DNA of 30,039 bases. It comes from a virus. The position numbers and the translations under genes were made by a program. The notes under the pieces were generated by a model. It saw only the letters and a program-made list of their open reading frames with translations. It was not told the origin of the DNA and ran no database searches. Of the stretch, positions 8,436 to 28,449 are shown in pieces. The stretch is taken from positions 1 through 30,039 of the IMG/VR virus record IMGVR_UViG_3300017720_000042, one strand, 5' to 3'. How positions within the stretch are numbered: position 1 is the stretch's first letter; every line of letters starts with the position of its first letter.

Positions 8436-8436
8436 A

Positions 8437-8936: not shown

Positions 8937-8946
8937 ATTATTATTT

Positions 8947-14678: not shown

Positions 14679-14705
14679 ATATAACGTAAAAAAATAAAAA
14701 TTTGC
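14679..14705 (-). promoter_or_regulatory. Late promoter motif L1 (GCAAAT-N12-ACGTTATAT)
   Basis: GCAAAT lies at 14700-14705 and ACGTTATAT at 14679-14687, with 12 bp between CAAAT and the second box. The start codon begins 4 bp later (14674). The -35-like box directly follows the T-tract of the terminator at 14707-14735, making a terminator-promoter joint. It should drive the portal, fibre and lysis genes. It is one of five copies. Confidence 0.8.
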
Positions 14706-14706
14706 C

Positions 14707-14735
14707 AAAAAAAAAGGCTACCTATAAAAGTAGCC
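14707..14735 (-). terminator. Intrinsic terminator after tail-tube-like gene
   Basis: On the minus strand GGCTAC and GTAGCC form a 6-bp stem round an 8-nt loop, followed by nine T residues (14707-14715). It ends the capsid and tail-tube transcript 25 bp after the stop codon. It lies directly upstream of late promoter L1. Confidence 0.93.
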
Positions 14736-14759
14736 GATTTTCAAAGGAAAACAAAATAA

Positions 14760-15317
14760 TTAAGGGTTAACCGTATTACTAGGGTTAATTTGTGTAGGTG
14801 CAGCTGCCGAAGCAGATATTGCACCCTCTACTACGCTTTCTTCTATAAAAAACGCAGGTAATTTTTCCATTCCTACTTGAGTTAACGTAAAGCCTGTTAA
14901 ATCGCCTCCGGCTGCTCCGGTTACGATAGTCCCCCCGCTACAATCTGTGCCATTTTCAGCACCGATAAGTAGGTAATTTTTGTTATAATCTTCTACAATA
15001 CAATAAGGTCTAGCATCGATAATTTTTATAAGTTCTTCTTGAGTTTCAACGTCCAAAAATGGTAGCGTTAAACTTAAAGTTTGCTCATAAAATACCGTCC
15101 CATTCTCTCTACTCGCATTAATTGTCTGCTCGAGGTTAGAATTACCTTTTAAATCATACTGAAAAAAAGCAGGAGTTCCCGCGAATCCGGTAATTACTCC
15201 ATTTGTTATTGATAGTGTACCTAGAGTACCAAAGTCCGCAAAATAAACAGCCTTTAGACCGCCCATTGAATTTTTGCAATTTAGCTCTCTACCCGTACTT
15301 AGTGCATCACAAGACAT
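14760..15317 (-). CDS. Major tail protein-like (tail tube)
   Basis: A 185-residue, beta-rich, low-charge protein. It begins 'CDALSTGRELNCKNSMGGLK' and continues AVYFADF, then 'FFQYDLKGNSNLEQT' and NGTVFYEQTLSL. A later segment 'YLLIGAENGTDCSGGT' precedes GFTLTQVGMEKLPAFF. This pattern, a cysteine-bearing N-terminus with 'GG.K.VY' and a late 'NG..LLG..NG', is one I associate with tail-tube proteins of Bacteroidota siphoviruses. It directly follows the major capsid gene and is the last gene before a strong terminator, as expected for a protein made in large amounts. A hairpin (15340-15363) lies in its leader. A head decoration protein is the main alternative. Confidence 0.65.
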   Translation of the reverse strand: MSCDALSTGRELNCKNSMGGLKAVYFADFGTLGTLSITNGVITGFAGTPAFFQYDLKGNSNLEQTINASRENGTVFYEQTLSLTLPFLDVETQEELIKIIDARPYCIVEDYNKNYLLIGAENGTDCSGGTIVTGAAGGDLTGFTLTQVGMEKLPAFFIEESVVEGAISASAAAPTQINPSNTVNP

Positions 15318-15339
15318 ATTTATAAGTTTTATATACCTT

Positions 15340-15363
15340 ATAGCCGAGCCGAAACCCGGCTAT
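15340..15363 (-). other. RNA stem-loop between capsid and tail-tube-like genes
   Basis: ATAGCCGGG pairs with its partner CTCGGCTAT (one G-U pair) round a 6-nt loop, in a very A+T-rich gap. No T-tract follows (AAGGTATATAAAAC), so it is not a normal terminator. It may protect the 3' end of the capsid message, act as a processing site, or set the ratio of capsid to tail-tube protein. Confidence 0.75.
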
Positions 15364-15385
15364 TTAGTATGATTAATTAAATTTA

Positions 15386-16387
15386 TTAAGATAAGCTATA
15401 TACTACAGCATCTTTAGGTACTCCAACTTGACAGCCTGCAAAAAATCTTACGATAACTCTTACATTATTACTTCCGTCTAAATCTGCCATATCTAGCAAC
15501 TTCACAGTTTGCTGAATATCACTTAATACTGAAGTTCCAAAGAATAAATTAGATTTTTCAGCCAATACTGCGTTAGTAGTAGGCATACCTGGGCACATAG
15601 CAACTTGAATACCGTCAAAAGTTAAAGCTGCTCCACCATTAGAATACCACATAGTACCTCTGTTATCCACACCTTGAGCACCTAAGCCTTGAGTAGCAAA
15701 ACCTCCTAAAGCTCTTACATACGCTTTGTATGCAGCTGTAGGAACGTATAGGTATAAATCGTCTTTACCATATACAGCAGGTAGCATAGCGTCTACTATA
15801 GATCCAAATTCGTCAATTACTGTACTTGAGTCCCAAGCAGTCTCAGCCGATACTACTTTTTGTGAGTTAGCCTCAGCTAATAATTTAGGTACGAAACCTT
15901 CAAACTGTCCTGAAGTTGTTCCGTCTCCTTGCCAAATGTTAATTTCTACTTTTTCTGCGATTTTTGCTGCAACGTGAGCTAGCATATAATCAGCAAAAGA
16001 GCCTGGTAAATCTACAAACGCTGAAGCTCCTTGTTCTAGGGCTAAATAGTCAGATTCGAAGTCAGACTTACAAATCTGTAGGTTTGTTTGATAGTTACCA
16101 ACTTCTAAAACTCTTTGTTCTAGGTTAATAGCATCTGCTGTTGGGTCGAAGTCGCAAGTTCCGTCTACTACGATATTTGACATATCTAGTTTTTTGATTA
16201 CTTCTTTGTACTTTACGTTAGGCTTAATTGTAACTAAACCTTTATCTAAAGTAGTTCCTGATAGTAACGCTGCTGCGATAAATTGACCGGCGAATTGTCC
16301 CTCATAGGTAGTAGTAATAGTACCTATAGAACCTGAGCCTGTAATGTCTCTAAGTGCAACGTTTCTGTTTTTTAAATTTCTGTTCAT
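15386..16387 (-). CDS. Major capsid protein (HK97 fold)
   Basis: A 333-residue protein with the look of an HK97-fold capsid subunit. A short flexible N-terminus (MNRNLKNRNVALRDITG) precedes the E-loop-like segment at about 40-85 (TIKPNVKYKEVIKKLDMSNI), the spine and P-domain region 'FADYMLAHVAAKIAEKVEIN' with IWQGDG (about 132-157), and an A-domain segment DLYLYVPTAAYKAYVRAL (about 210-227). The C-terminal part ends VRVIVRFFAGCQVGVPKDAV. It follows the scaffold gene by 11 bp and precedes the tail-tube-like gene. The base and residue composition (rich in A, G and V, with common codons) is that of a highly expressed gene. No cleavable long delta domain is evident, consistent with a separate scaffold. 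Confidence 0.88.
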   Translation of the reverse strand: MNRNLKNRNVALRDITGSGSIGTITTTYEGQFAGQFIAAALLSGTTLDKGLVTIKPNVKYKEVIKKLDMSNIVVDGTCDFDPTADAINLEQRVLEVGNYQTNLQICKSDFESDYLALEQGASAFVDLPGSFADYMLAHVAAKIAEKVEINIWQGDGTTSGQFEGFVPKLLAEANSQKVVSAETAWDSSTVIDEFGSIVDAMLPAVYGKDDLYLYVPTAAYKAYVRALGGFATQGLGAQGVDNRGTMWYSNGGAALTFDGIQVAMCPGMPTTNAVLAEKSNLFFGTSVLSDIQQTVKLLDMADLDGSNNVRVIVRFFAGCQVGVPKDAVVYSLS

Positions 16388-16398
16388 TTTAGTTATTG

Positions 16399-17013
16399 TT
16401 ATTTTAAATTTAGTTTAGATAATTTAGACATAACTCGGTCTAAAGTTGTATTCATATTTCTATTTTGCGAAAACGACATAGCCGGAGCTTTTTCTTCACT
16501 TTTAGGACTATGTTTCAAAGGCTTACGAGCAGCAAATTTATGCGACTTTAAGTCTTCTCTTACGTCTTCTTTTTCGTCATCAATTCCGTCTTTATAACCC
16601 TCTTCTTCTGCTTCAGGTATAGACTCAAACTTACGTTTAAGTTCTTCGACTTCCTTTTTAACTTCTTCTATAATTGGTGCTACAACCTCTACGACAGCTT
16701 CTATAACAGCTGCTACGTCTTCGGCTACCTCTTCAGGTGCTTCAATTATAACCTCTTCTGTTTCGAGTTCTTCCTTAACTCTAAATTCAGAGATAACCCC
16801 CTCTTCAGTTACAACTAACATACGACCGTCTTCGATCATATATTCGCCAACTGGTAAAGCGATTCTTTCTTCGTCAGATACGATAAAAACTGCTGAGTCT
16901 TTCTCAAAAGATTCTGCTTCGATTACCGTTCCATTATCCAAAATAAGCTGGGCTAAATTTACTTTCGCACCTAGCAGAGCTTTAATTTGGGTTAACATTT
17001 CAGTAGTATTCAT
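16399..17013 (-). CDS. Scaffolding protein-like
   Basis: A 204-residue, highly acidic protein just before the capsid gene. Residues 15-75 form a small beta domain (AQLILDNGTVIEAESF, ALPVGEYMIEDGRMLVV, GVISEFRV). Residues 80-135 are very rich in E and V with heptad spacing (VEVVAPIIEEVKKEVEELKR), a probable coiled coil. The C-terminal 50 residues are basic (SHKFAARKPLKHSPK, then SKLSKLNLK), as in scaffolds whose C-terminal helix binds the capsid subunit. The order protease, accessory genes, scaffold, capsid also fits. It should be removed or cleaved by the XkdF-like protease during head maturation. A weakly similar promoter-like sequence occurs before its start, but I do not call it. Confidence 0.7.
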   Translation of the reverse strand: MNTTEMLTQIKALLGAKVNLAQLILDNGTVIEAESFEKDSAVFIVSDEERIALPVGEYMIEDGRMLVVTEEGVISEFRVKEELETEEVIIEAPEEVAEDVAAVIEAVVEVVAPIIEEVKKEVEELKRKFESIPEAEEEGYKDGIDDEKEDVREDLKSHKFAARKPLKHSPKSEEKAPAMSFSQNRNMNTTLDRVMSKLSKLNLK

Positions 17014-17032
17014 ATATAATTAATTTAAGTGA

Positions 17033-17494
17033 TTATTTAATAAAATCGTTATTATTAGTATAATTAATAGTCTCTCTATATTTACTAATAAAGTCTTTAT
17101 AAACTCCGTCTGCTTCATCTACATAACGTCTATAGTCATCGTAGTTAGGTAAAACCTCAGTAGGATCTAAACCTAATCTATCCATTCCAGTATCAAAGTC
17201 TGCTAACAAGTTTTTAACTTCTTCTGCAATAAAAGGTAAATTACTAGCATTACCATTAATAGCCATTTCGTCAATTTCTGTTTTGATAGGGTTAGTCGCT
17301 TCAAACCATTGGTCTAATAAATCGTCTAACCTTTCGTAACCATAATAACTAGCGTCATCGAAAGCGTATTGTAATTCGTCTAGTCTATCTTCTAATTCAG
17401 ATACTAAACTTAAATTAGTTCTCTGCTCTTTGCTTAATTTTGTCTTAGGCAATTTGTTTAATATTGCTAAGGCTTTTTTTTCGTTAATTCCCAT
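17033..17494 (-). CDS. Hypothetical head-assembly region protein (153 aa), paralogue of 17687-18139
   Basis: A 153-residue acidic helical protein. By eye it aligns with the 150-residue protein at 17687-18139. Each has a segment that ends in 'DQW(F/Y)E' and follows 'L..L.Y...(D/E)', then a 'PFI.E.......D' segment, then 'LG(L/I)(D/E)P.(E/Q)(V/I).P...D'. The N-terminus is basic (EKKALAILNKLPKTKLSKEQ). The pair flank a 66-residue gene, between the protease and the scaffold. A duplication is likely. No fold is recognised; a role in procapsid assembly or maturation is inferred only from the neighbours. Confidence 0.65.
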   Translation of the reverse strand: MGINEKKALAILNKLPKTKLSKEQRTNLSLVSELEDRLDELQYAFDDASYYGYERLDDLLDQWFEATNPIKTEIDEMAINGNASNLPFIAEEVKNLLADFDTGMDRLGLDPTEVLPNYDDYRRYVDEADGVYKDFISKYRETINYTNNNDFIK

Positions 17495-17684
17495 AAGTTT
17501 TTTTTATATATCCACAAATTTTAGGAGCAGCTTCAGCCCCATATCTTTTAGTTTGTTCTGCTATACATTCGTCCCAAGGATAAGACTCTAAGTCCATTCC
17601 TTTTTTAGACATTCTATCTACTATCATTTCAACAGTATCATAAGAACTAAACATTTTTTTAAAAACTGTATTTAAAGTGCTCAT
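17484..17684 (-). CDS. Small phage protein with 'PWDECI..Q...YG.EAAPKICG' motif (66 aa)
   Basis: A 66-residue protein whose C-terminal half reads YPWDECIAEQTKRYGAEAAP and then KICGYIKKTYGN. This 'F/W-x-x-C-(I/V)-x-(E/D)....G-x-x-x-A-x-x-(I)-C-(G/A)-x-I' pattern is a small conserved module in many tailed phages, often near or fused to head genes, with two conserved cysteines. Its function is unknown to me. It overlaps the 153-residue gene by 11 bp and is 2 bp from the 150-residue gene. Confidence 0.72.
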   Translation of the reverse strand: MSTLNTVFKKMFSSYDTVEMIVDRMSKKGMDLESYPWDECIAEQTKRYGAEAAPKICGYIKKTYGN

Positions 17685-17686
17685 AA

Positions 17687-18139
17687 TTATACTGATTTAC
17701 TTTCGTTTTCAAATTCTTTTTTCTGCTCTTCAAAAGCCTCTATATAAGCGTAGCCGTCCTGTATAACGTTAATATGGTCGTTTATACTAGGATATATTTG
17801 TTCAGGCTCTATTCCTAATTCATAAGCAGTTTCGTATATAGTGTCTATTAATTCACTATCTTTATTTAAGTCTGCTTCAGTAATAAAAGGCTCTGCATTT
17901 TGAAAATATACTGAATATATTTCTCTACCTAATTCATACCATTGGTCAAATCTATCAGGAAACCATTCATTTACAAAATAACCTAAGTTATCTATTTCGT
18001 CATTAATTTCATCAAATTGACCATAGCTAAAATCGTCTAAAATACTTAGCGTAGCCTTATATTTTTTTAATTGTACTCCTTTTAATTCTTTTGTCTTATC
18101 CTTAAAAAGTTTACTAAATACTCTGTTTTTTGTATTCAT
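17687..18139 (-). CDS. Hypothetical head-assembly region protein (150 aa), paralogue of 17033-17494
   Basis: A 150-residue, acidic, helix-rich protein with aromatic segments: 'DNLGYFVNEWFPDRFDQWYE' and 'AEPFITEADLNKDSELIDTI', followed by LGIEPEQIYPSINDH. It shares these landmarks with the 153-residue gene at 17033-17494. It is the first gene after late promoter motif L2, which ends 4 bp before its ATG, and so opens the capsid transcript that runs to the terminator at 14707. The role in head assembly is inferred from position. Confidence 0.68.
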   Translation of the reverse strand: MNTKNRVFSKLFKDKTKELKGVQLKKYKATLSILDDFSYGQFDEINDEIDNLGYFVNEWFPDRFDQWYELGREIYSVYFQNAEPFITEADLNKDSELIDTIYETAYELGIEPEQIYPSINDHINVIQDGYAYIEAFEEQKKEFENESKSV

Positions 18140-18143
18140 ATCT

Positions 18144-18170
18144 ATATAACGTTAGTTTAAAATTATTTGC
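18144..18170 (-). promoter_or_regulatory. Late promoter motif L2 (GCAAAT-N12-ACGTTATAT)
   Basis: GCAAAT at 18165-18170, 12-bp spacer, ACGTTATAT at 18144-18152. The ATG at 18137-18139 begins 4 bp after the motif. From the motif to the start codon (ACGTTATATAGATATG) it is identical to L1. It should drive scaffold, capsid and tail-tube expression up to the terminator at 14707-14735. Confidence 0.82.
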
Positions 18171-18174
18171 ATTT

Positions 18175-18330
18175 TTAAGTTAATCTAGTAATAGATCCGA
18201 TACCCTGAGCCCATAAAGTCCCGTCGCAGCATTTACGACTATAAGTATTTTCGTCTTTACATAGACAACCTCTTTTTCCGTTTTTTGGAGATACTACCGG
18301 TAAAGGTATTGGTTGGTTAAAGTTGCTCAT
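18175..18330 (-). CDS. Small cysteine-rich phage protein (51 aa)
   Basis: Open frame of 51 codons from ATG 18328-18330 to TAA 18175-18177. The key segment is RGCLCKDENTYSRKCCDGTL followed by WAQGIG. Its CxC and CC pairs and the closing 'LWAQGIG' are a pattern I know from tiny proteins in head gene clusters of flavobacterial phages; zinc binding is possible. It overlaps the protease gene by 14 bp and ends 4 bp before promoter L2. Function unknown. Confidence 0.8.
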   Translation of the reverse strand: MSNFNQPIPLPVVSPKNGKRGCLCKDENTYSRKCCDGTLWAQGIGSITRLT

Positions 18331-18931
18331 TTTCTATAAGTGCTTTTTTTATTTTTAATAAAGTAAGTCCGTCTTCGATTTGTTGTTTATGAGCTTTTAC
18401 TTCGGTTTGATATTTTTCTCCGAACATACCCTCTATACTAAAACCATTTAACGACCCTGACTCTTTAATTTCGTTCCAAATTTTATCATTGTGAACTCTA
18501 ACAGTTCCAACCCAAGTTCCGACAGGTAAATCTAAATTATAGATATTACTTTTATCTTGTTCTTTAGATTCTACAATCCAAGATTCAACTAGTGTTAGAC
18601 CTTTTACTTTTTCTATATGCTCATAACTAGCGTTATTTTGGTAGCCTCGCTGCATATATAATTCAGAAGCTAAACGAACAGTATCTTTATTAAAAAATAT
18701 ATAATAAGGCTCTTCGTCTGCTCCGTCTTTACGATAAATTGTTTTATTAGGGACTAGCAAAGCTCCTAATAATAGTCTTTGGTCTTCATCGACCTGTTTA
18801 AATTCGTACTGCTTTTTGTCGTCTTTTAAAGCGACCCAATTTTCCTCAATAGCAGGGTGCTCTACAATACTTATGCAGTCGACCCCAGAATCTAAATCGT
18901 TTTCATCTATAATTAATTCTACAATTTTCAT
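18317..18931 (-). CDS. XkdF-like prohead serine protease
   Basis: A 204-residue protein with the signature of the phage XkdF-type (S78-like) prohead protease. The N-terminus has 'CISIVEHPAIEENWVAL', which marks the protein in many phages. 'NNASYEHIEKVKGLTLVESW' follows with the likely catalytic H105. The core continues with IVESKEQDKSN, then DLPVGTWVGTVRVHNDKIW, and SLNGFSIEGMF with the likely catalytic S165. It would trim scaffold and capsid proteins before DNA packaging. It lies four genes upstream of the scaffold. Late promoter motif L3 ends 4 bp upstream of its ATG. Identity is strong; which acidic residue completes the site is not clear. Confidence 0.88.
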   Translation of the reverse strand: MKIVELIIDENDLDSGVDCISIVEHPAIEENWVALKDDKKQYEFKQVDEDQRLLLGALLVPNKTIYRKDGADEEPYYIFFNKDTVRLASELYMQRGYQNNASYEHIEKVKGLTLVESWIVESKEQDKSNIYNLDLPVGTWVGTVRVHNDKIWNEIKESGSLNGFSIEGMFGEKYQTEVKAHKQQIEDGLTLLKIKKALIENEQL

Positions 18932-18935
18932 ATTT

Positions 18936-18962
18936 ATATAACGTTATTAAATTAATATTTGT
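18936..18962 (-). promoter_or_regulatory. Late promoter motif L3 (ACAAAT-N12-ACGTTATAT)
   Basis: ACAAAT at 18957-18962 (one change from GCAAAT), 12-bp spacer, ACGTTATAT at 18936-18944. The start codon of the protease begins 4 bp later. It occupies almost the entire gap between the tape-measure stop (18965) and the protease ATG (18931). Confidence 0.8.
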
Positions 18963-18964
18963 GT

Positions 18965-20581
18965 TTATATAGAACTTTCAGTAATAGTATTACGTTCTAA
19001 TTCTTGAGCAGTAGTTACGTCTCCGGCTACTACATAGGATCTACTAGGCTTATTTTCTTGGTCTGCTATAGCTGAAGCTAAGTTAGAAGTTCCACCCGTA
19101 CCGACTACGTTAAAAGCAGGCATAGTTGGACCAGGAGCACCACCACCCCCACCACCTTTAACGCCTTTAGGTTTAGGTACAGTTTTAATTTGTTGAACGG
19201 TTTTCATACCAGCTATTAAAACCCCTGCTGAAGCTACAGCTTTTTGTATAACATCAAATGGAGCAGGCAAAGTAGATTCATTAGCCCAAACTTCAGAAAT
19301 ACCCTGATAAGTGTTTATTGTTGCTGCTGCAATAGCGGCTGCTTTACCGGCTGCTGAATTTTTTCCTAGTACTTCAGCTAAAGTTCCAAAGGTCATTTTC
19401 ATTAAACCTATTTTTTGGTCTGCTACTGATTTTTCTCTAGCCGATTCTTCTTTGTCATAATTGTCGTTAGACTCAGCTATTTGAGAATTAAAGTTTTGGT
19501 TTATTTCTTCTATAGCTCGTTTCTTCATAAACTCCGAAGCAGTACTAGCTTCTACTTCAGCAACTAGCCTTTGACGTTCTAAGTCTAGAAGCATAGCGTC
19601 ATTTTCTTTAGTTTTTTCTAAATTAGCTTCCCAGTATTGTCGTCTTAACCCAGCAACCATTTCTGTATCTTTAACGTATAACGCTAACTTATCGGCTGCT
19701 AACTTTGCTTCGGCTGCTAGTTCGTCAGCCCTAGCCTTATCTGCAATAGCTTTACGTTTATCTCTCTCTGCTTTTTCGTTTTCGGTTATGGTATTCTCCA
19801 TTCCCGCTTTCATATTTTTTAGCTTCAATAAATTAGCCTGAGCAGTTTCTATAGCTTCGTCTGCTTCTTCGTCTTCAGTACTAATAATAAAAGAAGCCAT
19901 ATTATTAAAAATAGCAGAAGAATTACTTCCTGTAATATAATCGTAGGCTTTCATTATCCAGCCTATAGGTCCAGTCAAAAATTGTATTAACCCGGCTAAA
20001 AAGTCCTGGGATCGTTGGGCAGTTTCTTTTTGTATTTTACGTTGCTCGATTTGAGTAGTTATTTGAGCCTCTAGAGCTTTAATAGTTTCTCCTGTTTGAG
20101 CAATTTTCATTTGCAATATTTCCTTATCAGTTTTGCCTTGCTGTTTAAGTATATTTTCTGACTGAGAAATAACGTCTAATTGTTTCTGGGCAATTTCTGC
20201 TTGTTTAGTTTGGTTAGCTAGTACTTCTTTTTGTTCACTAGAAACCCCTGACATAACCGATTTAATGTCGTCCCAATAAGCAACTACTGTACCTAGAGCA
20301 ACTACTAAAGCCCCTATACCTGTAGCTATAATAGCTCCTTTTAAAAGATTCATAGAAGCAGCGAAACCTCTTACTGCTACTATAGTACCCTTAATCATTT
20401 TTTGGAGGTTACGACCTTGAGTAACCATACCCCCTGTAATAGCGTCTAACCCTTGTACAGCGTCTCGGTTTTTATCTAAGGTTTTATTAAATTTAGAAAC
20501 ATCGCCTGATAATTCCTTAAATGCTGCAGCCGCCCCTTTCGACTTAACGACTACTTCAATACCTATTTTTTCAGTTGCCAT
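18965..20581 (-). CDS. Tail tape-measure protein
   Basis: A 538-residue protein. The start 'KIGIEVVVKSKGAAAAFKEL' is typical of tape measures. A helical segment leads to a hydrophobic stretch (about residues 80-102, KGAIIATGIGALVVALGTVV), a usual feature for crossing the host membrane. A coiled-coil rich region runs through residues 120-390. Then comes a small-residue segment 'LGKNSAAGKAAAIAAATINT' with YQGISEVW (about 410-435), conserved near the ends of many tape measures, and a glycine-rich linker (KGVKGGGGGGAPGP). At roughly 1.5 angstrom per residue, a tail near 80 nm is implied. It overlaps the small upstream gene by 19 bp. Confidence 0.9.
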   Translation of the reverse strand: MATEKIGIEVVVKSKGAAAAFKELSGDVSKFNKTLDKNRDAVQGLDAITGGMVTQGRNLQKMIKGTIVAVRGFAASMNLLKGAIIATGIGALVVALGTVVAYWDDIKSVMSGVSSEQKEVLANQTKQAEIAQKQLDVISQSENILKQQGKTDKEILQMKIAQTGETIKALEAQITTQIEQRKIQKETAQRSQDFLAGLIQFLTGPIGWIMKAYDYITGSNSSAIFNNMASFIISTEDEEADEAIETAQANLLKLKNMKAGMENTITENEKAERDKRKAIADKARADELAAEAKLAADKLALYVKDTEMVAGLRRQYWEANLEKTKENDAMLLDLERQRLVAEVEASTASEFMKKRAIEEINQNFNSQIAESNDNYDKEESAREKSVADQKIGLMKMTFGTLAEVLGKNSAAGKAAAIAAATINTYQGISEVWANESTLPAPFDVIQKAVASAGVLIAGMKTVQQIKTVPKPKGVKGGGGGGAPGPTMPAFNVVGTGGTSNLASAIADQENKPSRSYVVAGDVTTAQELERNTITESSI

Positions 20582-20712
20582 AGCAATTCGGTTTTAAGTT
20601 GTTTAAATGATTCTTTTAGACCTGTACTTAGTTTATTTTTACCTTGTGCAATTCTAATATTTTCTGTTTCTCCGTTTGCCTCCTGTAATAAATCTATAAT
20701 TAGTTTCAACAT
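20563..20712 (-). CDS. Small protein upstream of tape measure (49 aa)
   Basis: Open frame of 49 codons, ATG 20710-20712 to TAG 20563-20565, starting 2 bp after the stop of the 743-residue gene and overlapping the tape-measure start by 19 bp. The protein begins MLKLIIDLLQEANGETENIR and has a basic, helical C-terminal half. The place is where many siphoviruses carry the frameshifted chaperone, but here that gene is at 25811. No family recognised; possibly a tail-assembly accessory protein. Confidence 0.68.
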   Translation of the reverse strand: MLKLIIDLLQEANGETENIRIAQGKNKLSTGLKESFKQLKTELLWQLKK

Positions 20713-20714
20713 AA

Positions 20715-22946
20715 TTAAATATTTAAGTCTTGAGTTAATAATTCTAATTCGCTTTTACCTGTAGCAAAATTTGTTTTTATACTATTAATCATATAAGTAT
20801 TATTTCCTATAACAAACCTATTAGCTAGAGATAATTCAAACAACACCGAATCAGGCAAATAAGCAGTAACTTTAACTAATCTTTTAGACTGCTCGAATAT
20901 TCCCTGTATATACCTTTGATGAAATTCAGTAAATAATGTTTGTTGGTTAATTGCTCCTGTAAATTCGTTAGTTTCAGGGAAAAAAGCTAAACTTCTAGAA
21001 AACGCACTACTACCCACACTAGCAGAAGCAGGTATTCTATAATTTTCTATATATCCAACAGAATTTTCTGTAGGCATAAAACTAAAAAGTGTACCCTCGT
21101 CAATAAATGTTGCTTTATGTAGTAATGGTTTACCCATTATAGGCTTTCTATCATTATCTACTGTCCAACCCCATTGTAATTGAGTTTGAGAATCAGGTAA
21201 AGCAGTGTCCCAAATTCTCTCATATTTCTGAAACTCAAAAGGAACTTCTATAGTATAAGGTTTCCCTACAAATACTCCGTCTGTAGCACCTCTATAGTTT
21301 TCTGTTCCCCATTCTTGACCAAATAATTGATTATGATAATCTGCAAAAAATGTTTCTAAACCTTTATATTTATATTTAACCATATTATAAGGTAAAGTAT
21401 TACTTACGTCTTGTTCTTTAGCGTCTACATACTGAGTAATATCTATTGTTTTATAACCATTTATATAATTAGTGTCTCCAAAATAAAACTTATTATAATC
21501 TTTTAAAATTATAGTTTGTTTCTGATTTGTTTGATTAAATTTTACCTCTGCTATAATATTAAACATTTTAAAAATACCTGATAAAAATTCTATTATTTTT
21601 ATTTTTGGTACTTGGTCAGTAATGTTAAATTCAAAATTTGGGTTAAAAGTTACATTAGATATTTGAAATTCACTACGCCAATAATCAAGATTATAAATTG
21701 GAAAATATATACCTCTAGTGATTCTAAATTCAATTAAATCAAAGGCTATAAGAGAAGTAGGGGCTATAATAAGTCTAAAAGTTCCGTTTGTTACCTGCTG
21801 TTGTGCTGAGGGTACAATTTCTTGGTTTCCTATAACTAAGTCTAAAGAATCTACTACTGTTCCATTATATAATAATTGAGCCGAATAAGTAGTATTTAAG
21901 TAAGCGGTTAAAGGTCTTATAAAAACTCTTATCTCATTACCTGTTTGACCAAAAAAACTACTAGAGTTTTGCTCTACATTACTAGGAACAGCTATAGTTA
22001 TATCTGACCCATTACTAGTAGCTAAATTTACTGAAGAAGTCGAACTACTATTAGTAGGGTTTAAAGGAAATGTATTTACTATTTGAGGGAATGTCTGAGG
22101 TACGTTGTCATCAGTATTTAAAACTCTTCCCTGTGTTTTACTTAAATGTAAAAATATACTAGTAAAATAACTATCATTAAAAATAGTGTCTGCTGATCTA
22201 TCAAATTCTATTTCAGGATATGATTCTTCTATAGCTTTAAATATTAATTCTACTCTAAAAGAGGGCTTTAAGTCTTCCCAATAACAACCTTGTATATTAC
22301 CTGCTTGAGGATATAAATTCCCGTTTCCTTGAATATAAGGAGAAGCCGAATTATAAAACCAACGTTTCTCGTTAGAAATTAAAGTAACCGGAGTAACATT
22401 AGTATAAGTAACTCCGTCAACTACTTTAGAGTCAGAGGGGAAATTTTCTAACCTAGCTCGTATGTTAGCTGCATCATAAGGAAAACTAAAGTTATCTAGC
22501 CATATTAAATTTCTTAAAGTGTCTTCTCCAAATAATTGAGTTAAGGCTACAGTATTACCAAAAAAAGTTAGCTTATAATCTTTAGGTCTATTGTTTTCTA
22601 TTCCTGAGCTTTCTAATTTTATATATCCGTCTTGAAATGGACTAGTATTTAATTCTAGTTTAGCAGGTATTTTAATTCTTGAATCAAAGCCTGAAATACC
22701 ATTGTTATAAAAATGTCTAAATATTTTATTATTTTGTTTACTAGTTGGTACTGTAAATTTCCTAGTAAATGGAGTAAATACTTTAGCAGGGTCTTTAACG
22801 TTTTTTACTGTCTGAGTTAAAGTAACGCTTTCATCTTTAAACATTTCTACTTTTTCCCAAGGAAAATTTAATGGGTTTTGTATCTCTTCAATAGTACCTC
22901 CTGTAGTATTTCTAATATATAATTCTAATTTTTTTTTACTAGGCAT
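20715..22946 (-). CDS. Large distal tail / baseplate-like protein (743 aa)
   Basis: A 743-residue, beta-rich protein. Its N-terminal region (about 30-70: VEMFKDESVTLTQTVKNVKD and FTPFTRKFTVPTSKQNN) and the following FNNG-like and 'GFDSRIKIPAKLELN' with PFQDGYIKLES are a pattern shared by large tail proteins of Bacteroidota phages, including some in the crAss-like group. The C-terminus 'FELSLANRFVIGNNTYMINS' then 'GKSELELLTQ' resembles the closing segment of distal tail proteins. It overlaps the 325-residue gene by one base (TAATG) and precedes the tape measure. It probably forms the tail tip or baseplate hub. No peptidoglycan hydrolase motif is visible. Confidence 0.72.
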   Translation of the reverse strand: MPSKKKLELYIRNTTGGTIEEIQNPLNFPWEKVEMFKDESVTLTQTVKNVKDPAKVFTPFTRKFTVPTSKQNNKIFRHFYNNGISGFDSRIKIPAKLELNTSPFQDGYIKLESSGIENNRPKDYKLTFFGNTVALTQLFGEDTLRNLIWLDNFSFPYDAANIRARLENFPSDSKVVDGVTYTNVTPVTLISNEKRWFYNSASPYIQGNGNLYPQAGNIQGCYWEDLKPSFRVELIFKAIEESYPEIEFDRSADTIFNDSYFTSIFLHLSKTQGRVLNTDDNVPQTFPQIVNTFPLNPTNSSSTSSVNLATSNGSDITIAVPSNVEQNSSSFFGQTGNEIRVFIRPLTAYLNTTYSAQLLYNGTVVDSLDLVIGNQEIVPSAQQQVTNGTFRLIIAPTSLIAFDLIEFRITRGIYFPIYNLDYWRSEFQISNVTFNPNFEFNITDQVPKIKIIEFLSGIFKMFNIIAEVKFNQTNQKQTIILKDYNKFYFGDTNYINGYKTIDITQYVDAKEQDVSNTLPYNMVKYKYKGLETFFADYHNQLFGQEWGTENYRGATDGVFVGKPYTIEVPFEFQKYERIWDTALPDSQTQLQWGWTVDNDRKPIMGKPLLHKATFIDEGTLFSFMPTENSVGYIENYRIPASASVGSSAFSRSLAFFPETNEFTGAINQQTLFTEFHQRYIQGIFEQSKRLVKVTAYLPDSVLFELSLANRFVIGNNTYMINSIKTNFATGKSELELLTQDLNI

Positions 22947-23923
22947 TATCTAATATTATTAATTATTTCGTTTGCTATTTCAAAGTCTAAAGTATATTCG
23001 ACTAAATAATCGTTTAAGCTAGTTTTTTTCAATAACTCCTTAGAAGTTAAAACTACAGGATAAGTTTCAGTTGCATCAGTTAACCAAATAAAAGGAGACA
23101 GCATTAATTCCTGTAAATAAGGGTTATAACATTCTCCTACTAAACCTGTACTTAATTTTATTTTTTGCTGACCTACAAAATTATATGTTTTCTTATAATG
23201 GGCAGTAGTACTATAACTAGGGTTAGCTTTGTTAAGGTCTAATACATTAGATATGTAATTAGTATTACTTACACTAGTTGTGTCTATACTTTTTTTGAAA
23301 AACCATAAGTCCTGAAGAGCACCCCATTTATTTAAAAAAGTTATTTTAGTATGAGGATATTTACATTCTCTTATCCTATTTATTTTTATGTCTGTTCCGT
23401 CTACGTCTGTAGTAGTGTCATTAGGCAGAACTGTTTCGTCTCCTAAAACATCGCTTCCGTCATTATAATATATTCTAGTAGTTTTTCCATTAGGTAAATA
23501 AATTTCTGTACCTGATAATAAAATTTGATTTGTAGGTAGTGAATAATTAAGTCCGTCTTGAAATTCTGAGTAACCCTCTAAACCTGTAACTAACCCTGTT
23601 ATAGTACCTCCTAATTGAGCAGTAGTAGAAAAATTTAATAGTTGGTAAGTCATATCTACATTTGGAGGCAAAGCAGGTAAACCAGTTTGACCATTATAAA
23701 AAATTTCTATTAAATCTTTAATTAAGTCTGATATGTCAAAACTATTATAACCTTTGGCTACGCCTGCGTTATCTTTAAATTGGAAAGCGTTTTTAGTAAT
23801 AGTATATAAAGGGTTAGAAGAAGTTCCTCCCGTATAATATAATAAAAGTATAGAATAAGATAAGTCTGTAACCTCTCCTGTATATACTATGTAAGGACTT
23901 CTTGTAAATATTTTTGTAGCCAT
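22946..23923 (-). CDS. Tail-associated structural protein (325 aa)
   Basis: A 325-residue, beta-rich protein. It begins 'TKIFTRSPYIVYTGEVTDLS' and continues YSILLLYYTGG, then SFDISDLIKDLIEIFYNG. A later part 'CKYPHTKITFLNKWGALQDL' with WFFKKS is the kind of sequence seen in tail proteins that partner the large distal tail protein in Bacteroidota phages. It ends with VEYTLDFEIANEIINNIR. Tight coupling to the next gene (one-base overlap) and to the one before (2-bp gap) suggests joint assembly in the tail tip. No enzyme motif. Confidence 0.68.
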   Translation of the reverse strand: MATKIFTRSPYIVYTGEVTDLSYSILLLYYTGGTSSNPLYTITKNAFQFKDNAGVAKGYNSFDISDLIKDLIEIFYNGQTGLPALPPNVDMTYQLLNFSTTAQLGGTITGLVTGLEGYSEFQDGLNYSLPTNQILLSGTEIYLPNGKTTRIYYNDGSDVLGDETVLPNDTTTDVDGTDIKINRIRECKYPHTKITFLNKWGALQDLWFFKKSIDTTSVSNTNYISNVLDLNKANPSYSTTAHYKKTYNFVGQQKIKLSTGLVGECYNPYLQELMLSPFIWLTDATETYPVVLTSKELLKKTSLNDYLVEYTLDFEIANEIINNIR

Positions 23924-23925
23924 AA

Positions 23926-24570
23926 TTAAGTTTTTCTAGGTCTTCTACTTGTACTAAATTGAGTATAAGCAGCATTTGTTTTTAAAGGATCTAAAGTTTC
24001 TAAAGTTTTAAGTTGTATATCAACTAAGAACGAAGCTCTTAATTTTTGTATAATTCTAGAATCGTATTCTTTTTGTGCATTAGAAAAAAAGTAACTAGGA
24101 GATAACCCTGATAAATATATACTTCTAGTCATTAAATAGACTAAACTTTTTCTAGGAATAAATCTACCTTTTTCGTCTCTTATACCTGGAATACCTTTAG
24201 TAATAGTCCATTTATCAATAGCACCTCTAAGCCCAGGTTTACCTTTACCACTTCCGAATTTATAAGGAGACATAGGAGCTTTATTTATACCATACCATTT
24301 TGACCCCTTAGTTTCTTTACCTTGTTTGTTTACTCCTGGAGCAGGTAATTCGTTTGGGTTAGCCCCTTGTACCCCTTGGTCTATAAATTTACCATAAGCT
24401 AAAGAATAAAAATTTAAAGTACCTCCCCAGTCGAATTCGTCTAATATTTGATAGTCAAGACTATCGGCTAAAGCTCCGGTATTATTATTTTTTTCTAGGT
24501 TAGCCCTAGCAGAAGAAATTACGTTTAAAGCATAGGCTTGTAATTCTTTATATACTTCTTCGCTTAACAT
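23926..24570 (-). CDS. Neck / tail-completion protein, HK97 gp10-like (214 aa)
   Basis: A 214-residue basic protein. The N-terminal helix and 'NVISSARANLEKNNNTGALA' followed by DSL is the typical start of HK97 gp10-like tail-completion proteins (helix, then 'tG.L..Si'). 'FYSLAYGKFIDQGVQG' matches the 'A.yve.Gt' strand of that family. An inserted loop of about 50 residues (GKETKGSKWYGINKAPMSPY and beyond) is rich in G, K and P. SPSYFFSNA around 160 and a helical C-terminus complete it. It should sit at the head-tail interface. It overlaps the upstream gene by 7 bp. Confidence 0.7.
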   Translation of the reverse strand: MLSEEVYKELQAYALNVISSARANLEKNNNTGALADSLDYQILDEFDWGGTLNFYSLAYGKFIDQGVQGANPNELPAPGVNKQGKETKGSKWYGINKAPMSPYKFGSGKGKPGLRGAIDKWTITKGIPGIRDEKGRFIPRKSLVYLMTRSIYLSGLSPSYFFSNAQKEYDSRIIQKLRASFLVDIQLKTLETLDPLKTNAAYTQFSTSRRPRKT

Positions 24571-25046
24571 AAGTAAATATCGTTTTTAAATGTTATGTCA
24601 AAAGTACAAGCCCAACCTGCTAATTGATTTTCAAATCTTTGGTAAAAAGGCTCACAGGTCATACTCCCCTCGCATTGAAAACCTTGAAGTCTTAAATCAG
24701 ATCCTTTATACCTACCAAATAATCTATTACCTACAGCTAACATTGTGTTTAATATGTTCTGCTCATTTGTAACCCCATAAAATATATCAGTTTTTCTATC
24801 CTTAGAAATGTCTACTATATCCATTAAAATTACTGTAACGTTAAAAGTTATTAGTTGACCTGATTCATCTACATTAGCATTATTAGGGACTATATGTCCT
24901 ATAGGAAATATACTTTGTTTGCTTAAATCAATTTGTGCTAAGTCTCCATAAGTACAAGTATTTATACTTACGTCTTCTAGTAGATTAACTTTTAAAGAAT
25001 CTAACATTGTAAAAAAAGCAGTTGCTCCTATATTATTATTTGCCAT
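24564..25046 (-). CDS. Tail terminator / completion-like protein (160 aa)
   Basis: A 160-residue protein of mixed alpha/beta type. It has a helical start (residues 5-25), a beta region with 'QLITFNVTVILMDIVDISKD' (about 63-82), a helix 'NEQNILNTMLAVGNRLFGRY' (about 94-113), and a closing pair of strands 'GWACTFDITFKNDIYLC'. This order resembles tail-terminator proteins of siphoviruses, which cap the tail tube. Its start overlaps the end of the frameshifted chaperone frame (stop 25036-25038), so translation of the two is linked. Confidence 0.58.
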   Translation of the reverse strand: MANNNIGATAFFTMLDSLKVNLLEDVSINTCTYGDLAQIDLSKQSIFPIGHIVPNNANVDESGQLITFNVTVILMDIVDISKDRKTDIFYGVTNEQNILNTMLAVGNRLFGRYKGSDLRLQGFQCEGSMTCEPFYQRFENQLAGWACTFDITFKNDIYLC

Positions 25047-25811
25047 TTTTAAATTTATTTTTTATGTTTTGTGCCTCAGCCTCTTCTAATTCTTTTTGAT
25101 ACTGAAGCATTGTTAAACAGTGATGAACAGGTTTACGAGTAACCTCTTCTACCTTTGTTATGTCTCCGTTACTTAATTTATATATACTATTATACCAACC
25201 ATATTTTACTCTAAAATCTTCGTTTGCTCCGAAACTTTTTTCTTCAGTCTGTTCTCCTGTTTCAGAGTAGAGGTTAGAGTAACTTCTAATAATTCCGTCT
25301 CTAAACTGTAAAAAAAAACCAAGGCTGATACTGCTACAGAAGTAGGCATATTTTTTAATACCTCTGCATAATGAACTCCGTCATAAGGTTTAAGTTTATA
25401 CTTACCTTTATAGGTCATATCAATAGGACGATATAAAACAGCCATAGCTTTATTCATAGTAGCCCAATTAGTTAAATTAGTTTCTGCGTCTATGTATTCT
25501 CCAAAACTTAGATCCTGTAAGTCAGGAACAAAACCAAACTCTAAGCCTCCGAGCTTGAATCTAGTTATAAGACTAGGTTTTTGATTAAGTACTTTATTGA
25601 GTTTATTTACAGCTTTGTCTACGTCTGTCATTTTATACTGCAGACCCTCTTTAGGTTTTAGCCCACAGAATATTTCTAGCATTTTAAGACTAGCCTCTTC
25701 GCTTGTATAGTCTTCGTCAGATTTACCCTCAAACTCCATAAGGAATTTTTGATATTGGTATAGTGGTATGCTATGTAAATCTTTAGGTATTAATAATTCT
25801 ATTTTCTTCAT
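25036..25811 (-). CDS. Tail assembly chaperone, long product by -1 frameshift (about 258 aa)
   Basis: This is the long product read from the same ATG as the entry at 25206-25811. At 25311-25317 the ribosome meets T TTT TTT inside a run of nine T residues and can slip back by one base. The -1 frame then stays open for 91 codons to TAA 25036-25038. The extension begins LQFRDGIIRSY and contains KYGWYNSIYKLSNGDITKVE and RKPVHHCLTMLQYQ, which are well-formed protein segments that no ATG of its own can reach (the only upstream ATG in the gap, at 25200-25202, is out of frame and gives 9 codons). The total is 167 + 91 residues. Siphoviruses make G and GT chaperones in this way. Direct mass-spectrometric proof is absent, and transcript slippage at the T9 run is an alternative mechanism. 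Confidence 0.85.
25206..25811 (-). CDS. Tail assembly chaperone, short product (201 aa, G-like)
   Basis: The unshifted product is 201 residues, mainly helical, beginning MKKIELLIPKDLHSIPLYQY, then 'FLMEFEGKSDEDYTSEEASL' and EIFCGLKPKE. The pattern 'IPLYQYQ.....E' with a later 'FGFVPDLQDLSFGEYIDAET' occurs in a family found between neck and tail genes of Bacteroidota phages. Proteins of this type bind the tape measure during tail assembly. The last 34 residues, after the slippery site, are basic and polar (TLKQENRLKKKVSEQTKILE) and are replaced in the longer product. Promoter motif L4 ends 7 bp before the ATG and a terminator lies just upstream of it. In most siphoviruses this gene is next to the tape measure; here five genes lie between. 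Confidence 0.8.
   Translation of the reverse strand: MKKIELLIPKDLHSIPLYQYQKFLMEFEGKSDEDYTSEEASLKMLEIFCGLKPKEGLQYKMTDVDKAVNKLNKVLNQKPSLITRFKLGGLEFGFVPDLQDLSFGEYIDAETNLTNWATMNKAMAVLYRPIDMTYKGKYKLKPYDGVHYAEVLKNMPTSVAVSALVFFYSLETELLEVTLTSTLKQENRLKKKVSEQTKILE
25311..25317 (-). promoter_or_regulatory. Slippery heptamer T TTT TTT for -1 frameshift
   Basis: In the zero frame the codons are GTT TTT TTT TAC (25308-25319), so the P- and A-site tRNAs can both re-pair after a one-base slip. The run is nine T residues on the coding strand (25310-25318). After slippage the next codons are TTA CAG TTT AGA. No obvious strong hairpin was found within 10 nt downstream. Confidence 0.8.
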
Positions 25812-25818
25812 ACTATAT

Positions 25819-25844
25819 ATATAACGTTAAAATTTTAAATTTGA
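25819..25844 (-). promoter_or_regulatory. Late promoter motif L4 (TCAAAT-N11-ACGTTATAT)
   Basis: TCAAAT at 25839-25844, an 11-bp spacer (one shorter than the other four copies), and ACGTTATAT at 25819-25827. The ATG of the chaperone gene begins 7 bp later, 3 bp farther than in L1-L3. The -35-like box lies 5 bp from the T-tract of the terminator at 25850-25878. Confidence 0.76.
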
Positions 25845-25849
25845 GGCAT

Positions 25850-25878
25850 AAAAAAAACCCCCTAGAAAATCTAGAGGG
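25850..25878 (-). terminator. Intrinsic terminator closing the small inserted unit
   Basis: CCCTCTAGA and TCTAGGGGG form a 9-bp stem (one G-U pair) with a 3-nt loop, followed by eight T residues (25850-25857). It ends the transcript of 25901-26319 and is followed at once by late promoter L4. Confidence 0.94.
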
Positions 25879-25900
25879 TAATTTAACTAAACACTAATTA

Positions 25901-26074
25901 TTAAACAAATTCTTTTTCTAAATGTTCAAATTCGTTTTCTCTGAGTTTTAATTCTTCAAAGGATAATCTAGCAAGGTATAATTTGTTGTCGTAGTCGTCC
26001 CTTTGTTTAGTATAGTATTCTACGTTCCATTGAGCCTCCTTTAGGAGTTTCTCGTATCTAGTTTCTTTTTCCAT
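25901..26074 (-). CDS. Small coiled-coil protein of the inserted unit (57 aa)
   Basis: Open frame of 57 codons. ATG 26072-26074 overlaps the stop of the 81-residue gene by one base (TAATG), and the stop is 22 bp before a strong terminator. The product is highly charged and helical throughout, starting MEKETRYEKLLKEAQWNVEY, with a heptad-like pattern in its second half (SFEELKLRENEFEHLEKEF), so it should form a coiled coil. No family recognised. Being in a unit with its own promoter and terminator, it may serve an accessory function such as host takeover or exclusion of other phages, but this is only inferred. Confidence 0.75.
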   Translation of the reverse strand: MEKETRYEKLLKEAQWNVEYYTKQRDDYDNKLYLARLSFEELKLRENEFEHLEKEFV

Positions 26075-26319
26075 TATCTTATAGCAAATTGTTCGTCAGT
26101 ATAAGAAGTATAAAAAGTCTTAGGTAATTGCTTAGTAATAGCTAGTGCTAAAGAATTATTATTATTAGCATATTTACATATCATAGTAGATAGTTTACCT
26201 TGAAGCTCAAATAGTTCTTCTTGGTCTAGCATATCACATAAGAAGAAATCGTCTCCTAAAGTGTTGGCTATTGCTTTTACTAACTTAGTGTTAGTGTACT
26301 CGTTTTTTGTTTTCATCAT
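26074..26319 (-). CDS. Hypothetical protein of the inserted unit (81 aa)
   Basis: An 81-residue protein, helix-rich and with several acidic residues: 'TLGDDFFLCDMLDQEELFEL' in the centre, then ICKYANNNNSLALAITKQLP and an aromatic tail (KTFYTSYTDEQFAIR). It has two adjacent methionines at the start; either may be used. There is no membrane segment or known motif. Upstream are a consensus host-type promoter and a folded RNA leader that ends 17 nt before the ATG, so expression may respond to that RNA. Downstream it overlaps the 57-residue gene. The whole unit interrupts the usual order from terminase to structural genes. Confidence 0.75.
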   Translation of the reverse strand: MMKTKNEYTNTKLVKAIANTLGDDFFLCDMLDQEELFELQGKLSTMICKYANNNNSLALAITKQLPKTFYTSYTDEQFAIR

Positions 26320-26336
26320 ATAGTATTTAATTAACC

Positions 26337-26441
26337 AAAACCTATTTAGTAGTTTACGTCTGTTCAGGGGCTCGGTTTACCTGAGACGACAATTATTCTC
26401 ATTGCTGAGGTTTTCGGTCTTACTGTATATCTGCCTACTAA
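26337..26441 (-). ncRNA. Structured RNA leader or small RNA (putative riboregulator)
   Basis: The minus-strand RNA starting near 26443 can fold into: P1, TTAGTAG/CTACTAA (26435-26441 with 26346-26352); P3, CTCA/TGAG closed by a GCAA tetraloop (26398-26409); P2, GTCT and CAGG (84-87, 80-83 of 26300s) with CCTG and AGAC (26365-26368, 26358-26361). A 7-bp pseudoknot, AAAACCT (26408-26414) with AGGTTTT (26337-26343), is also possible. G+C content is clearly higher than in the surroundings. It has a promoter directly upstream, no terminator before the next gene, and ends 17 nt from the ATG at 26319. I do not recognise the class. A packaging signal (pac/cos) next to terL is an alternative. Confidence 0.6.
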
Positions 26442-26449
26442 CGACAATA

Positions 26450-26481
26450 CAAATATAGTAAATATAAATGATATTAACAAA
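26450..26481 (-). promoter_or_regulatory. Consensus Bacteroidota promoter (TTTG-N20-TATATTTG)
   Basis: TTTG at 26478-26481, a 20-bp spacer and TATATTTG at 26450-26457, an exact match to the -7 consensus TAnnTTTG of the primary Bacteroidota sigma factor. The predicted start, 5-7 nt downstream, falls just before stem P1 of the RNA at 26337-26441. It lies in the gap right after the large terminase gene. Confidence 0.8.
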
Positions 26482-26498
26482 CGTTGTGTATAAAACTT

Positions 26499-27656
26499 TT
26501 ATCGTATAGCGTAACGAGCTACCTTTGGTCTAGCTAGTTTTTTGATAATACTATAACGGACTGAATCAATACTATGATCGTTTTTTTGTACAGGAACATT
26601 AAGCAGAGTTCCGTTTTTATCTTCTTGCCATTTATAGTTTTTAAACTCCTTTAAAGTATTCATAGACCTGGAGGTTATATGGAGCTTGTATCTTTTAAGT
26701 AAGTCAATACCCATATTAATAGAGTCCCTACCTTTTTGAGCAGCCTTAACATTATATCCGTATCTATGCAGTTCGTCTATAGACTTAGGCTCGGCTGAGT
26801 CTGCAAAGATTTCTATTTGTCTAGTTATTCCTAGTTCTACAAATTTGTCTTTTATGTCTCGGTTAGTTAAACCATAACTATAAAATAATTCATCTATATA
26901 TAATTTGTCTTGATAGACGTAAGAAAAAACTAAACAGCTAGGATCGTTGACAAAGCCCCAATCTAAACCTCCTGCTATAAACTCAGCCTCAGCAGGTATT
27001 TTATCTATTTCTAAATAAGTAAATATAGTTGCTCTATTCCTACCTACCTGACCTAAACCATAAACCCTCCAATAGTCAGCGTCAGTATCTTTAAGGCGTT
27101 CTATTTCTTTTACTATGTCAGGGTTTAGAAACCTATTATCTTTATAAGTTGTTATATTAAAAAAAGCATCGTTCCTGGTTTTAACTTTGCTATATATCCA
27201 GGAGTATTCATCGGAGGGGTTATAATCTAAAATAAGGTTAGACTCAGTTCTAAATAGAATTTGATTAAATGATTCGTAGCTACATTCGTTAGCCTCGTTT
27301 ATAAAGGCTATATGTCTTTTACGTCCTTTAAGTCTTGAGGGTTGGTCGATACTCACAAACTCGAATAAATTGTTGTTTAGTTTATATTCGCTATTACTTT
27401 TATTATGAGCTTGGTCTTCGTATAGATTATACGTCTCAAGTATGTCGAAGAAGTCTCTCATTACTGTAGCCCTTAAAGCAGGATAGGTAGCCCTAAATAT
27501 TGTAATGGTTTTATTAGTATGTTTCATAGCATACCCAAAGATTAACCAAAGAATTATATTATAGGTTTTACCTGAACGAGTTCCTCCTTGAAATATTTTT
27601 ATTTTATGATCTGACTTATGCAGATAGTCATATACTATATTAGTCTGTACTTTCAT
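26499..27656 (-). CDS. terL: Terminase large subunit
   Basis: A 385-residue packaging motor with ATPase and nuclease domains, on the short side for the family but complete. Walker A is GGTRSGKT (24-31). Walker B is HIAFINEANE (115-124) with the catalytic glutamate. The coupling region follows near 145-150 (DYNPSDE). The RNase H-like nuclease has aspartates at D232 (GGLDWGFVNDPS), D286 (IFADSAEP) and D364 (NDHSIDSVRY). The sequence is of the PBSX/terminase-3 kind. It cuts concatemeric DNA and drives it through the portal. It overlaps the small subunit by 17 bp. The downstream gap is occupied by a promoter and RNA element of a different unit. Confidence 0.96.
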   Translation of the reverse strand: MKVQTNIVYDYLHKSDHKIKIFQGGTRSGKTYNIILWLIFGYAMKHTNKTITIFRATYPALRATVMRDFFDILETYNLYEDQAHNKSNSEYKLNNNLFEFVSIDQPSRLKGRKRHIAFINEANECSYESFNQILFRTESNLILDYNPSDEYSWIYSKVKTRNDAFFNITTYKDNRFLNPDIVKEIERLKDTDADYWRVYGLGQVGRNRATIFTYLEIDKIPAEAEFIAGGLDWGFVNDPSCLVFSYVYQDKLYIDELFYSYGLTNRDIKDKFVELGITRQIEIFADSAEPKSIDELHRYGYNVKAAQKGRDSINMGIDLLKRYKLHITSRSMNTLKEFKNYKWQEDKNGTLLNVPVQKNDHSIDSVRYSIIKKLARPKVARYAIR

Positions 27657-27996
27657 CTATTGAGCCTAAAACTTCTACTTCAAATTTCCTAGCTTCAGGT
27701 ATAGCAATTTCTTGACGTTCTACATAACCTCGGCTTTTAGCCCTAGTTTTTAAATAGAATATAATTGAAGCAGTGTCGTTAGCTTTGATTCTCTCATAGA
27801 GCTTAGACTCTACAAAATCTATAGCTGACTCAGTTATGTCTTGGACTTCTTGTTTGTAGTCTTCGTCTTCTTTTAACCACCTATAATGAGTCTGCCTACT
27901 AATATTTACAGCTAGACAACTTGTAGAAACTATGCCTAGGTTAAAGGTCAAGGCTTCTATCATATCCTTTTTTTTAGTGTAACTTTTGTCATTCAT
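27640..27996 (-). CDS. terS: Terminase small subunit
   Basis: A 118-residue protein with an N-terminal helix-turn-helix (about 10-37: DMIEALTFNLGIVSTSC then VNISRQTHYRWLKED), an 'SR.T.YrWl..D..' recognition helix common in phage small terminases. A helical oligomerisation region follows (ESAIDFVESKLYERIKANDT) and then 'ASIIFYLKTRAKSRGYVERQ', typical of the family C-terminal to the HTH. It recognises the packaging site and feeds DNA to the large subunit. It overlaps terL by 17 bp. Late promoter motif L5 ends 5 bp before its ATG, inside the 3' end of the preceding gene. Confidence 0.9.
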   Translation of the reverse strand: MNDKSYTKKKDMIEALTFNLGIVSTSCLAVNISRQTHYRWLKEDEDYKQEVQDITESAIDFVESKLYERIKANDTASIIFYLKTRAKSRGYVERQEIAIPEARKFEVEVLGSIDESTD

Positions 27997-28001
27997 TTTA
28001 T

Positions 28002-28028
28002 ATATAACGTAAGAAATTTATTATTTGC
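28002..28028 (-). promoter_or_regulatory. Late promoter motif L5 (GCAAAT-N12-ACGTTATAT)
   Basis: GCAAAT at 28023-28028, 12-bp spacer, ACGTTATAT at 28002-28010, with the terS ATG beginning 5 bp later. The -35-like box lies inside the last codons of the DnaA-like gene (stop 28021-28023), so the motif is kept even where it must also serve as coding sequence. Confidence 0.8.
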
Positions 28029-28449
28029 TAAGTAATTCTTTTAGAAACTTTCTAGTTTTATTTAATTGGTTTTTGGTTTGTATCTTACTAACTAGGCTTA
28101 TTACATTGTTAATTTGCCTTGGAGAAACTTCTTGTAGTTTTATAACGTCTACTATATCTAAGAAATGAGGGTTTCTAAATACTACGTCTTTAAAGTTTTT
28201 TATACTATGTATAATAGTAGTATGATGCCTTTTTTTGTTTTTACTTAAATAGTAATCTCTTATTGCAAATAACGTCTGCTGATATTCTACTTTTAATAAA
28301 TAATCAAATAAAGCTCTAGCGTCTACTAGGTCTTGAGTCTTAGCCTCTATAAATATATTAGTCTTAGTATGTTCTATTACTAAGTCGGCTACTCTTTTTA
28401 TCTGAGAGTTATTTAATGGTTTTTTAATTATCTGGTTTGTCTTTAACAT
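28021..28449 (-). CDS. Free-standing DnaA domain IV-like DNA-binding protein
   Basis: A 142-residue protein with no ATPase domain. Residues about 20-90 match the helical DNA-binding domain IV of DnaA: 'VIEHTKTNIFIEAKTQDLVD' and ARALFDYLLK correspond to 'v...y.i....l.s..R...i..pRqiamyL', and YLSKNKKRHHTTIIHSIKNF corresponds to the helix-turn-helix signature 'f.grDHtTVlha...i', with HHTTI at 75-79. The remaining 50 residues are helical and basic. It could bind DnaA-box-like sites to start phage replication, or compete with host DnaA. It lies between the methyltransferases and terS. The similarity is seen by eye and persuasive, though the aspartate of DHTT is histidine here. Confidence 0.72.
   Translation of the reverse strand: MLKTNQIIKKPLNNSQIKRVADLVIEHTKTNIFIEAKTQDLVDARALFDYLLKVEYQQTLFAIRDYYLSKNKKRHHTTIIHSIKNFKDVVFRNPHFLDIVDVIKLQEVSPRQINNVISLVSKIQTKNQLNKTRKFLKELLSK

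Follow-up and report, generated by a model that had tools for sequence, protein, structure and literature searches.

The stretch of DNA analysed here (the window) is IMG/VR record IMGVR_UViG_3300017720_000042 over its full 30,039 nucleotides, and it is a small marine tailed phage in which terminase, portal, protease, amidase and holin genes are recognised by profile and library matches. Its contig ends (1-294 and 29746-30039) form an inexact direct repeat of 294 bp with 97.6% identity and its gene order is circular relative to that of relatives G002 and G003, so that the record in effect represents the whole genome, about 29.75 kb long, in permuted form; with such overlapping ends the contig is not taken to be truncated. 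The slight mismatch between the end repeats of this "linear" record is probably due to slightly different strains. A flavobacterial host is likely by sequence relationship, since the closest cultured relatives are the Nonlabens phages P12024S and P12024L. Two neighbouring DNA methyltransferase-like genes (28576-29888), for which tblastn finds no counterpart in the close relatives G002 and G003, are probably a recent insertion, and a putative tail-fibre region (7488-11664) is poorly conserved against these otherwise similar genomes.

Five bipartite sites in the window

Nearly all genes of the window lie on the minus strand, as do all five copies of a bipartite signal, CAAAT followed after 11 or 12 bp by ACGTTATAT, which an earlier note had described as a late promoter. 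P1 (28002-28027, with CAAAT at 28023-28027 and ACGTTATAT at 28002-28010) precedes terS (27640-27996), whose unit includes the large terminase gene (26499-27656, minus strand; PHROG/library match). P2 (25819-25843, with CAAAT at 25839-25843 and ACGTTATAT at 25819-25827) precedes an ORF at 25206-25811, P3 (18936-18961) the head protease gene (18317-18931; Peptidase_S78_2), P4 (18144-18169) an ORF at 17687-18139, and P5 (14679-14704) an ORF at 14255-14674 that is followed by the portal gene (12300-14258, minus strand; PHROG/library match). The spacer is 12 bp in four sites and 11 bp in P2. As the spacers have only 0-7 of 12 bases in common between sites, the five are not copied segments. The gap from ACGTTATAT to the ATG is 4, 4, 4, 7 and 5 nt in ascending coordinate order, in agreement with the 4-7 nt originally given, while the G said to flank CAAAT is present in three of the five sites and absent from the other two. 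Gene labels held up for terS (PHROG), the protease and the portal-containing unit, but not for the "tail chaperone" at 17687-18139, which has no informative library match; nor do library matches back any function for the ORFs at 14255-14674 and 25206-25811.

ACGTTATAT occurs nowhere else in the 30-kb window: there are exactly five exact copies, all at the sites, and none on the plus strand. Under a dinucleotide Markov null of the window a mean of 0.61 copies (maximum 3) was obtained for this element alone, and the bipartite pattern appeared in none of 200 such replicates. Comparison with shuffled sequence, the control that the earlier note had proposed, likewise places the motif far above chance, bipartite matches being close to zero in shuffles (mean 0.01; 0/100 shuffles reach five). 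De novo k-mer counting upstream of all ATGs ranks CGTTATAT as the first 8-mer in the window (p 2.7e-9, uncorrected), and it also ranks first in relative G002 (7e-10).

Two of the sites lie directly behind terminator-like hairpins on the minus strand, one of 10 pairs followed by a T run (25857-25879, upstream of P2) and one of 8 pairs followed by nine T (14716-14735, upstream of P5), the gap from hairpin to promoter being 11-13 nt in both cases.

Conservation and geometry of the promoter class

In IMG/VR relatives the motif is found again ahead of the orthologous genes, with spacers that differ. In cultured Nonlabens phage P12024S, whose portal protein is about 40% identical, seven CGTTA sites are located 6-7 nt upstream of an ATG, and all seven of these ATGs (179, 3031, 5412, 21280, 23961, 25201 and 26802) are annotated CDS starts; AAAACAAA stands at the −35 position in six of the seven. 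Homologous contigs are not independent observations in such conservation counts. Counting non-redundant sites that have correctly spaced CAAA and a gap of exactly 7 nt between CGTTA and ATG gives 19, where 59 anagrams of that pentamer average 0.08. The five sites are a promoter class.

When non-redundant sites are aligned on CGTTA and ATG alone, CAAA emerges at −30 to −27, taking the A of the ATG as +1. The ECF-type anatomy first proposed for the sites, two elements at rigid spacing, is retained here in refined form, CGT occupying −12 to −10 and CAAAT having its conserved C at −30. The 17 nt between them equal the spacing of known ECF promoters, and the non-redundant sites show the two elements 16-17 nt apart that mark promoters of ECF sigma factors. 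In Mycobacterium tuberculosis (Mtb), the promoters of sigma-H carry GGAAYA at −34 to −29, GTT at −11 to −9 and a 17-bp spacer (PMC6411747), and C−30 together with G−11, T−10 and T−9 fall on the same numbering when the A of the ATG is +1.

From this geometry, transcription is predicted to start at the ATG in three sites, on the A of the start codon itself (18931 for P3, 18139 for P4 and 14674 for P5), and 1 and 3 nt before it in the other two (27997 for P1 and 25814 for P2). The geometry thus supports the suggestion of leaderless mRNA, with a predicted leader of 0 nt at three sites and of 1 and 3 nt at the others, but such starts would not be universal in the class, because some homologous promoters in relatives predict leaders of about 6-10 nt. 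Some relatives have a gap of 10-17 nt to the ATG, and in some of them the portal-unit promoter lies 16-17 nt from it, so that a short leader would be tolerated and one of about 10 nt is possible. The best reading of the geometry is the prediction that late mRNAs have no leader or almost none.

A phage gene for an ECF-like sigma factor

A profile built from P12024S gp33, in which Sigma70_r2 is found above the Pfam cut-off, and from its weak homologues in relatives was used to search the window and related genomes. It matches the window at 2596-3183 (minus strand) as well as G002, G003, G005, G006, G010, G013, G022, G028 and G030, and a scan of IMG/VR yielded 112 relatives. The homologue in G022 (24090-24663; L104) is split over two frames, a frameshift in either the phage or the assembly. 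Tblastn of the phage collection returned no sigma relatives, and gp33 itself was reached through annotation and profile. The window gene encodes 195 aa from a GTG start, the exact position of which is uncertain, and its product would comprise a region-2-like N-terminal domain, a disordered linker and a C-terminal helix-turn-helix domain. It lies outside the late block, beside a DnaB-C-like ATPase/helicase gene (3213-4121, minus strand) directly upstream of it, and without a preceding motif, a placement like that of a phage late sigma of the 7-11 gp47 type; the order of the two genes is kept in G002 and G003. The 142-aa ORF beside terS, a candidate for the sigma gene by synteny with P12024S, shows no sigma similarity and was rejected in favour of 2596-3183.

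The window's own sigma protein has no direct sigma-family match in Pfam or PHROGs, and a profile search of the PDB turned up no sigma, the resemblance there being seen by fold comparison only. Among 53 aligned family members, 27 match PF04542 (Sigma70_r2) at E<=0.1 (best 2.8e-4) and 28 match the phage sigma family phrog_1740 of PHROG at the same threshold. When the window protein and a member from a distant clade were modelled with AlphaFold, the best Foldseek matches in the PDB were almost all ECF sigmas, among them Mtb sigma-L, E. coli sigma-E and region 4 of SigW/SigD. The models are of moderate confidence (pLDDT 75 and 67, with a low pTM of 0.41), and their TM-scores to sigmas reach only about 0.3 because they do not reliably fix how the two domains lie with respect to each other. 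At the level of these models, region 4, the C-terminal helix-turn-helix, appears to be present, with no room for regions 1.1 or 3. On the strength of the relatives and the models, we call the product ECF-like. A search of 84,980 bacterial and archaeal genomes found no relative, which makes this a phage gene and not a host one.

Promoter motif and sigma factor go together

The association was also approached from the motif. In a sample of contigs of at least 15 kb, the sigma family was found in 11 of 20 picked by the motif alone, compared with 0 of 20 picked by an anagram. Among the nine motif-picked contigs in which the sigma was not found, two (G038 and G040) are one chance match in GC-rich DNA; two near-complete ones, G039 and G047, have a diverged sigma candidate. 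Four or five motif-positive fragments of 15-19 kb with head genes in common with the window carry no clear sigma, an absence that is allowed for in fragments but not thereby explained. Every near-complete motif-bearing relative examined has a sigma gene or candidate.

One clade (G028, G030 and G023) has a diverged sigma, about 30% identical, as seen in G028 and G030, and CGTTATA is absent before its ATGs. In its place these phages have GGTTATA or GGTTATT, again with a 7-nt gap to the ATG, at three genes, namely the protease, the portal-unit gene and one more; in two of the three, AACA lies nearer by one base. In the contigs compared, signal and sigma recur together across many related phages. 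Conservation, ECF geometry, the phage ECF-like sigma family, co-divergence and the motif-first test all support the dedicated late promoter class of ECF type that the earlier note had put forward.

A model for late transcription

It is very probable, in our judgement, that the five sites, which are the full set in the genome given its completeness, constitute the complete set of late promoters and are read by host core RNA polymerase with the phage ECF-like sigma encoded at 2596-3183 (minus strand). For binding, timing and start sites we infer the following course. Early genes, that of the sigma included, would be expressed first by the host holoenzyme. Domain 4 of the sigma would then recognise CAAA(T), centred in the interval from about −30 to −26, and domain 2 would read and melt CGTTATA at −12 to −6. 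In this way the terS/terL, tail, protease, capsid and portal units would be switched on from five points, of which two immediately follow terminators. By the geometry, three units would have transcripts beginning with the A of the start codon, and in the other two transcription would begin 1-3 nt ahead of it.

The proposition that the sites are promoters, but that their specificity comes from a host alternative sigma or from another phage regulator and the 2596-3183 protein does something else, could draw on the 142-aa ORF (28021-28449), which has a weak DnaA-C helix-turn-helix match, and on the several motif-positive fragments without a sigma gene. Motif and sigma family, however, co-occur (11/20 against 0/20) and diverge together, near-complete motif-bearing relatives consistently have the gene or a candidate, and the sigma has no kin among the bacterial and archaeal genomes searched, all of which makes another factor improbable. 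It is harder to dismiss an origin of the fixed ATG distance in something else, for example an A-rich translation context, with transcription starting elsewhere and the mRNAs carrying leaders: in Flavobacterium johnsoniae 87% of transcripts have leaders longer than 10 nt and an A at −3 favours initiation (PMC6847099), and some homologous sites stand 10-17 nt from the ATG. We nevertheless regard this as unlikely, as the 7-nt distance recurs ahead of different genes, as well as in P12024S and the GGTTATA clade, and equals the ECF distance from −8 to +1, and as a translation signal would have no need of CAAA 30 nt upstream. Finally, a short AT-rich element within AT-rich DNA might be an operator or RNA element preceding late genes, or reflect a chance resemblance, but the site statistics, the strand bias, the two terminators immediately upstream, the ECF geometry and the linked sigma gene leave very little probability for a role other than promoter.

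Comparison with known systems

Late phage sigmas are a known kind, since phages 7-11 and phiEco32 already have them (PMC8948821). Salmonella phage 7-11 uses its sigma gp47 with eight bipartite late promoters (GTAAtg-16-aCTA), its early genes being transcribed by host sigma (PMC8948821). The two systems share a phage-encoded sigma with region 4, host core RNA polymerase (predicted here) and bipartite promoters before late units, a likeness in kind, whereas the motifs differ, 7-11 is an unrelated podophage of another host, and the start is predicted at the ATG in the present case. As far as it is described in PMC8948821, phiEco32 gp36 is a phage sigma that takes over host RNA polymerase for middle and late genes, as our candidate is predicted to do for late genes, but its promoter is a single element (tAATGTAtA) and no region 4 homology is described, in contrast to the two elements and C-terminal helix-turn-helix domain found here. 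The present system departs from both in its motif, its host group and its ECF geometry, as well as in a start predicted to fall at the ATG. Bacterial ECF sigmas such as Mtb sigma-H and sigma-L (PMC6411747, PMC6372665) have in common with the window two domains, a C at −30, GTT at −11 to −9 and 16-17 nt spacing; they differ in that phage late genes would be served here and the −35 box is CAAA in place of GGAAC. The Flavobacteriia primary promoter (PMC6847099) is likewise AT-rich and of the presumed host group, but its TAnnTTTG is not seen at the five sites and host transcripts mostly have leaders. We found no published account of this sigma/promoter system in literature outside subscription papers.

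On balance we lean towards a wider reading, in which a large and mostly uncultured marine phage group runs its whole late programme from a few ECF-type promoters that start at the start codon, the head genes of late units being leaderless in a host with mostly leadered transcripts, and in which changes in the sigma have gone along with changes in the −10 box (CGTTATA, GGTTATA, CGTTAATA). The system described here would provide a complete late-transcription switch, sigma and all promoters, for a common phage group with almost no molecular biology, and would explain how its late genes are turned on. The diverged sigma-promoter pairs would form a natural matched series for studying ECF specificity and, if the leaderless prediction is true, the phage uses another mode of translation start than the usual one of its host.

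Host-type promoters and early genes

The primary promoter of Flavobacteriia is TTTG / TAnnTTTG (PMC6847099), and this host element, which a Bacteroidota primary-sigma promoter would have about 5 nt before the start, is absent at all five sites. Scans for the host-type promoter TTG-N17-23-TAnnTTTG gave no excess over shuffles, and a generic sigma-70 scan came close to background. A TTAACA-N9-TAnnTTTG element before early genes is likely an early promoter in G002 and G003, and is degenerate in the window. Before the helicase and sigma genes (4121-4170), a terminator-like run precedes sequence that is conserved with G002 and G003, ends in TACGATATG and is possibly another promoter type. Several early genes have AACGA 1-2 nt ahead of their ATG (1759, 2637 and 5263, minus strand), and TAACGAC was observed four times upstream of ATGs against 0.08 expected.
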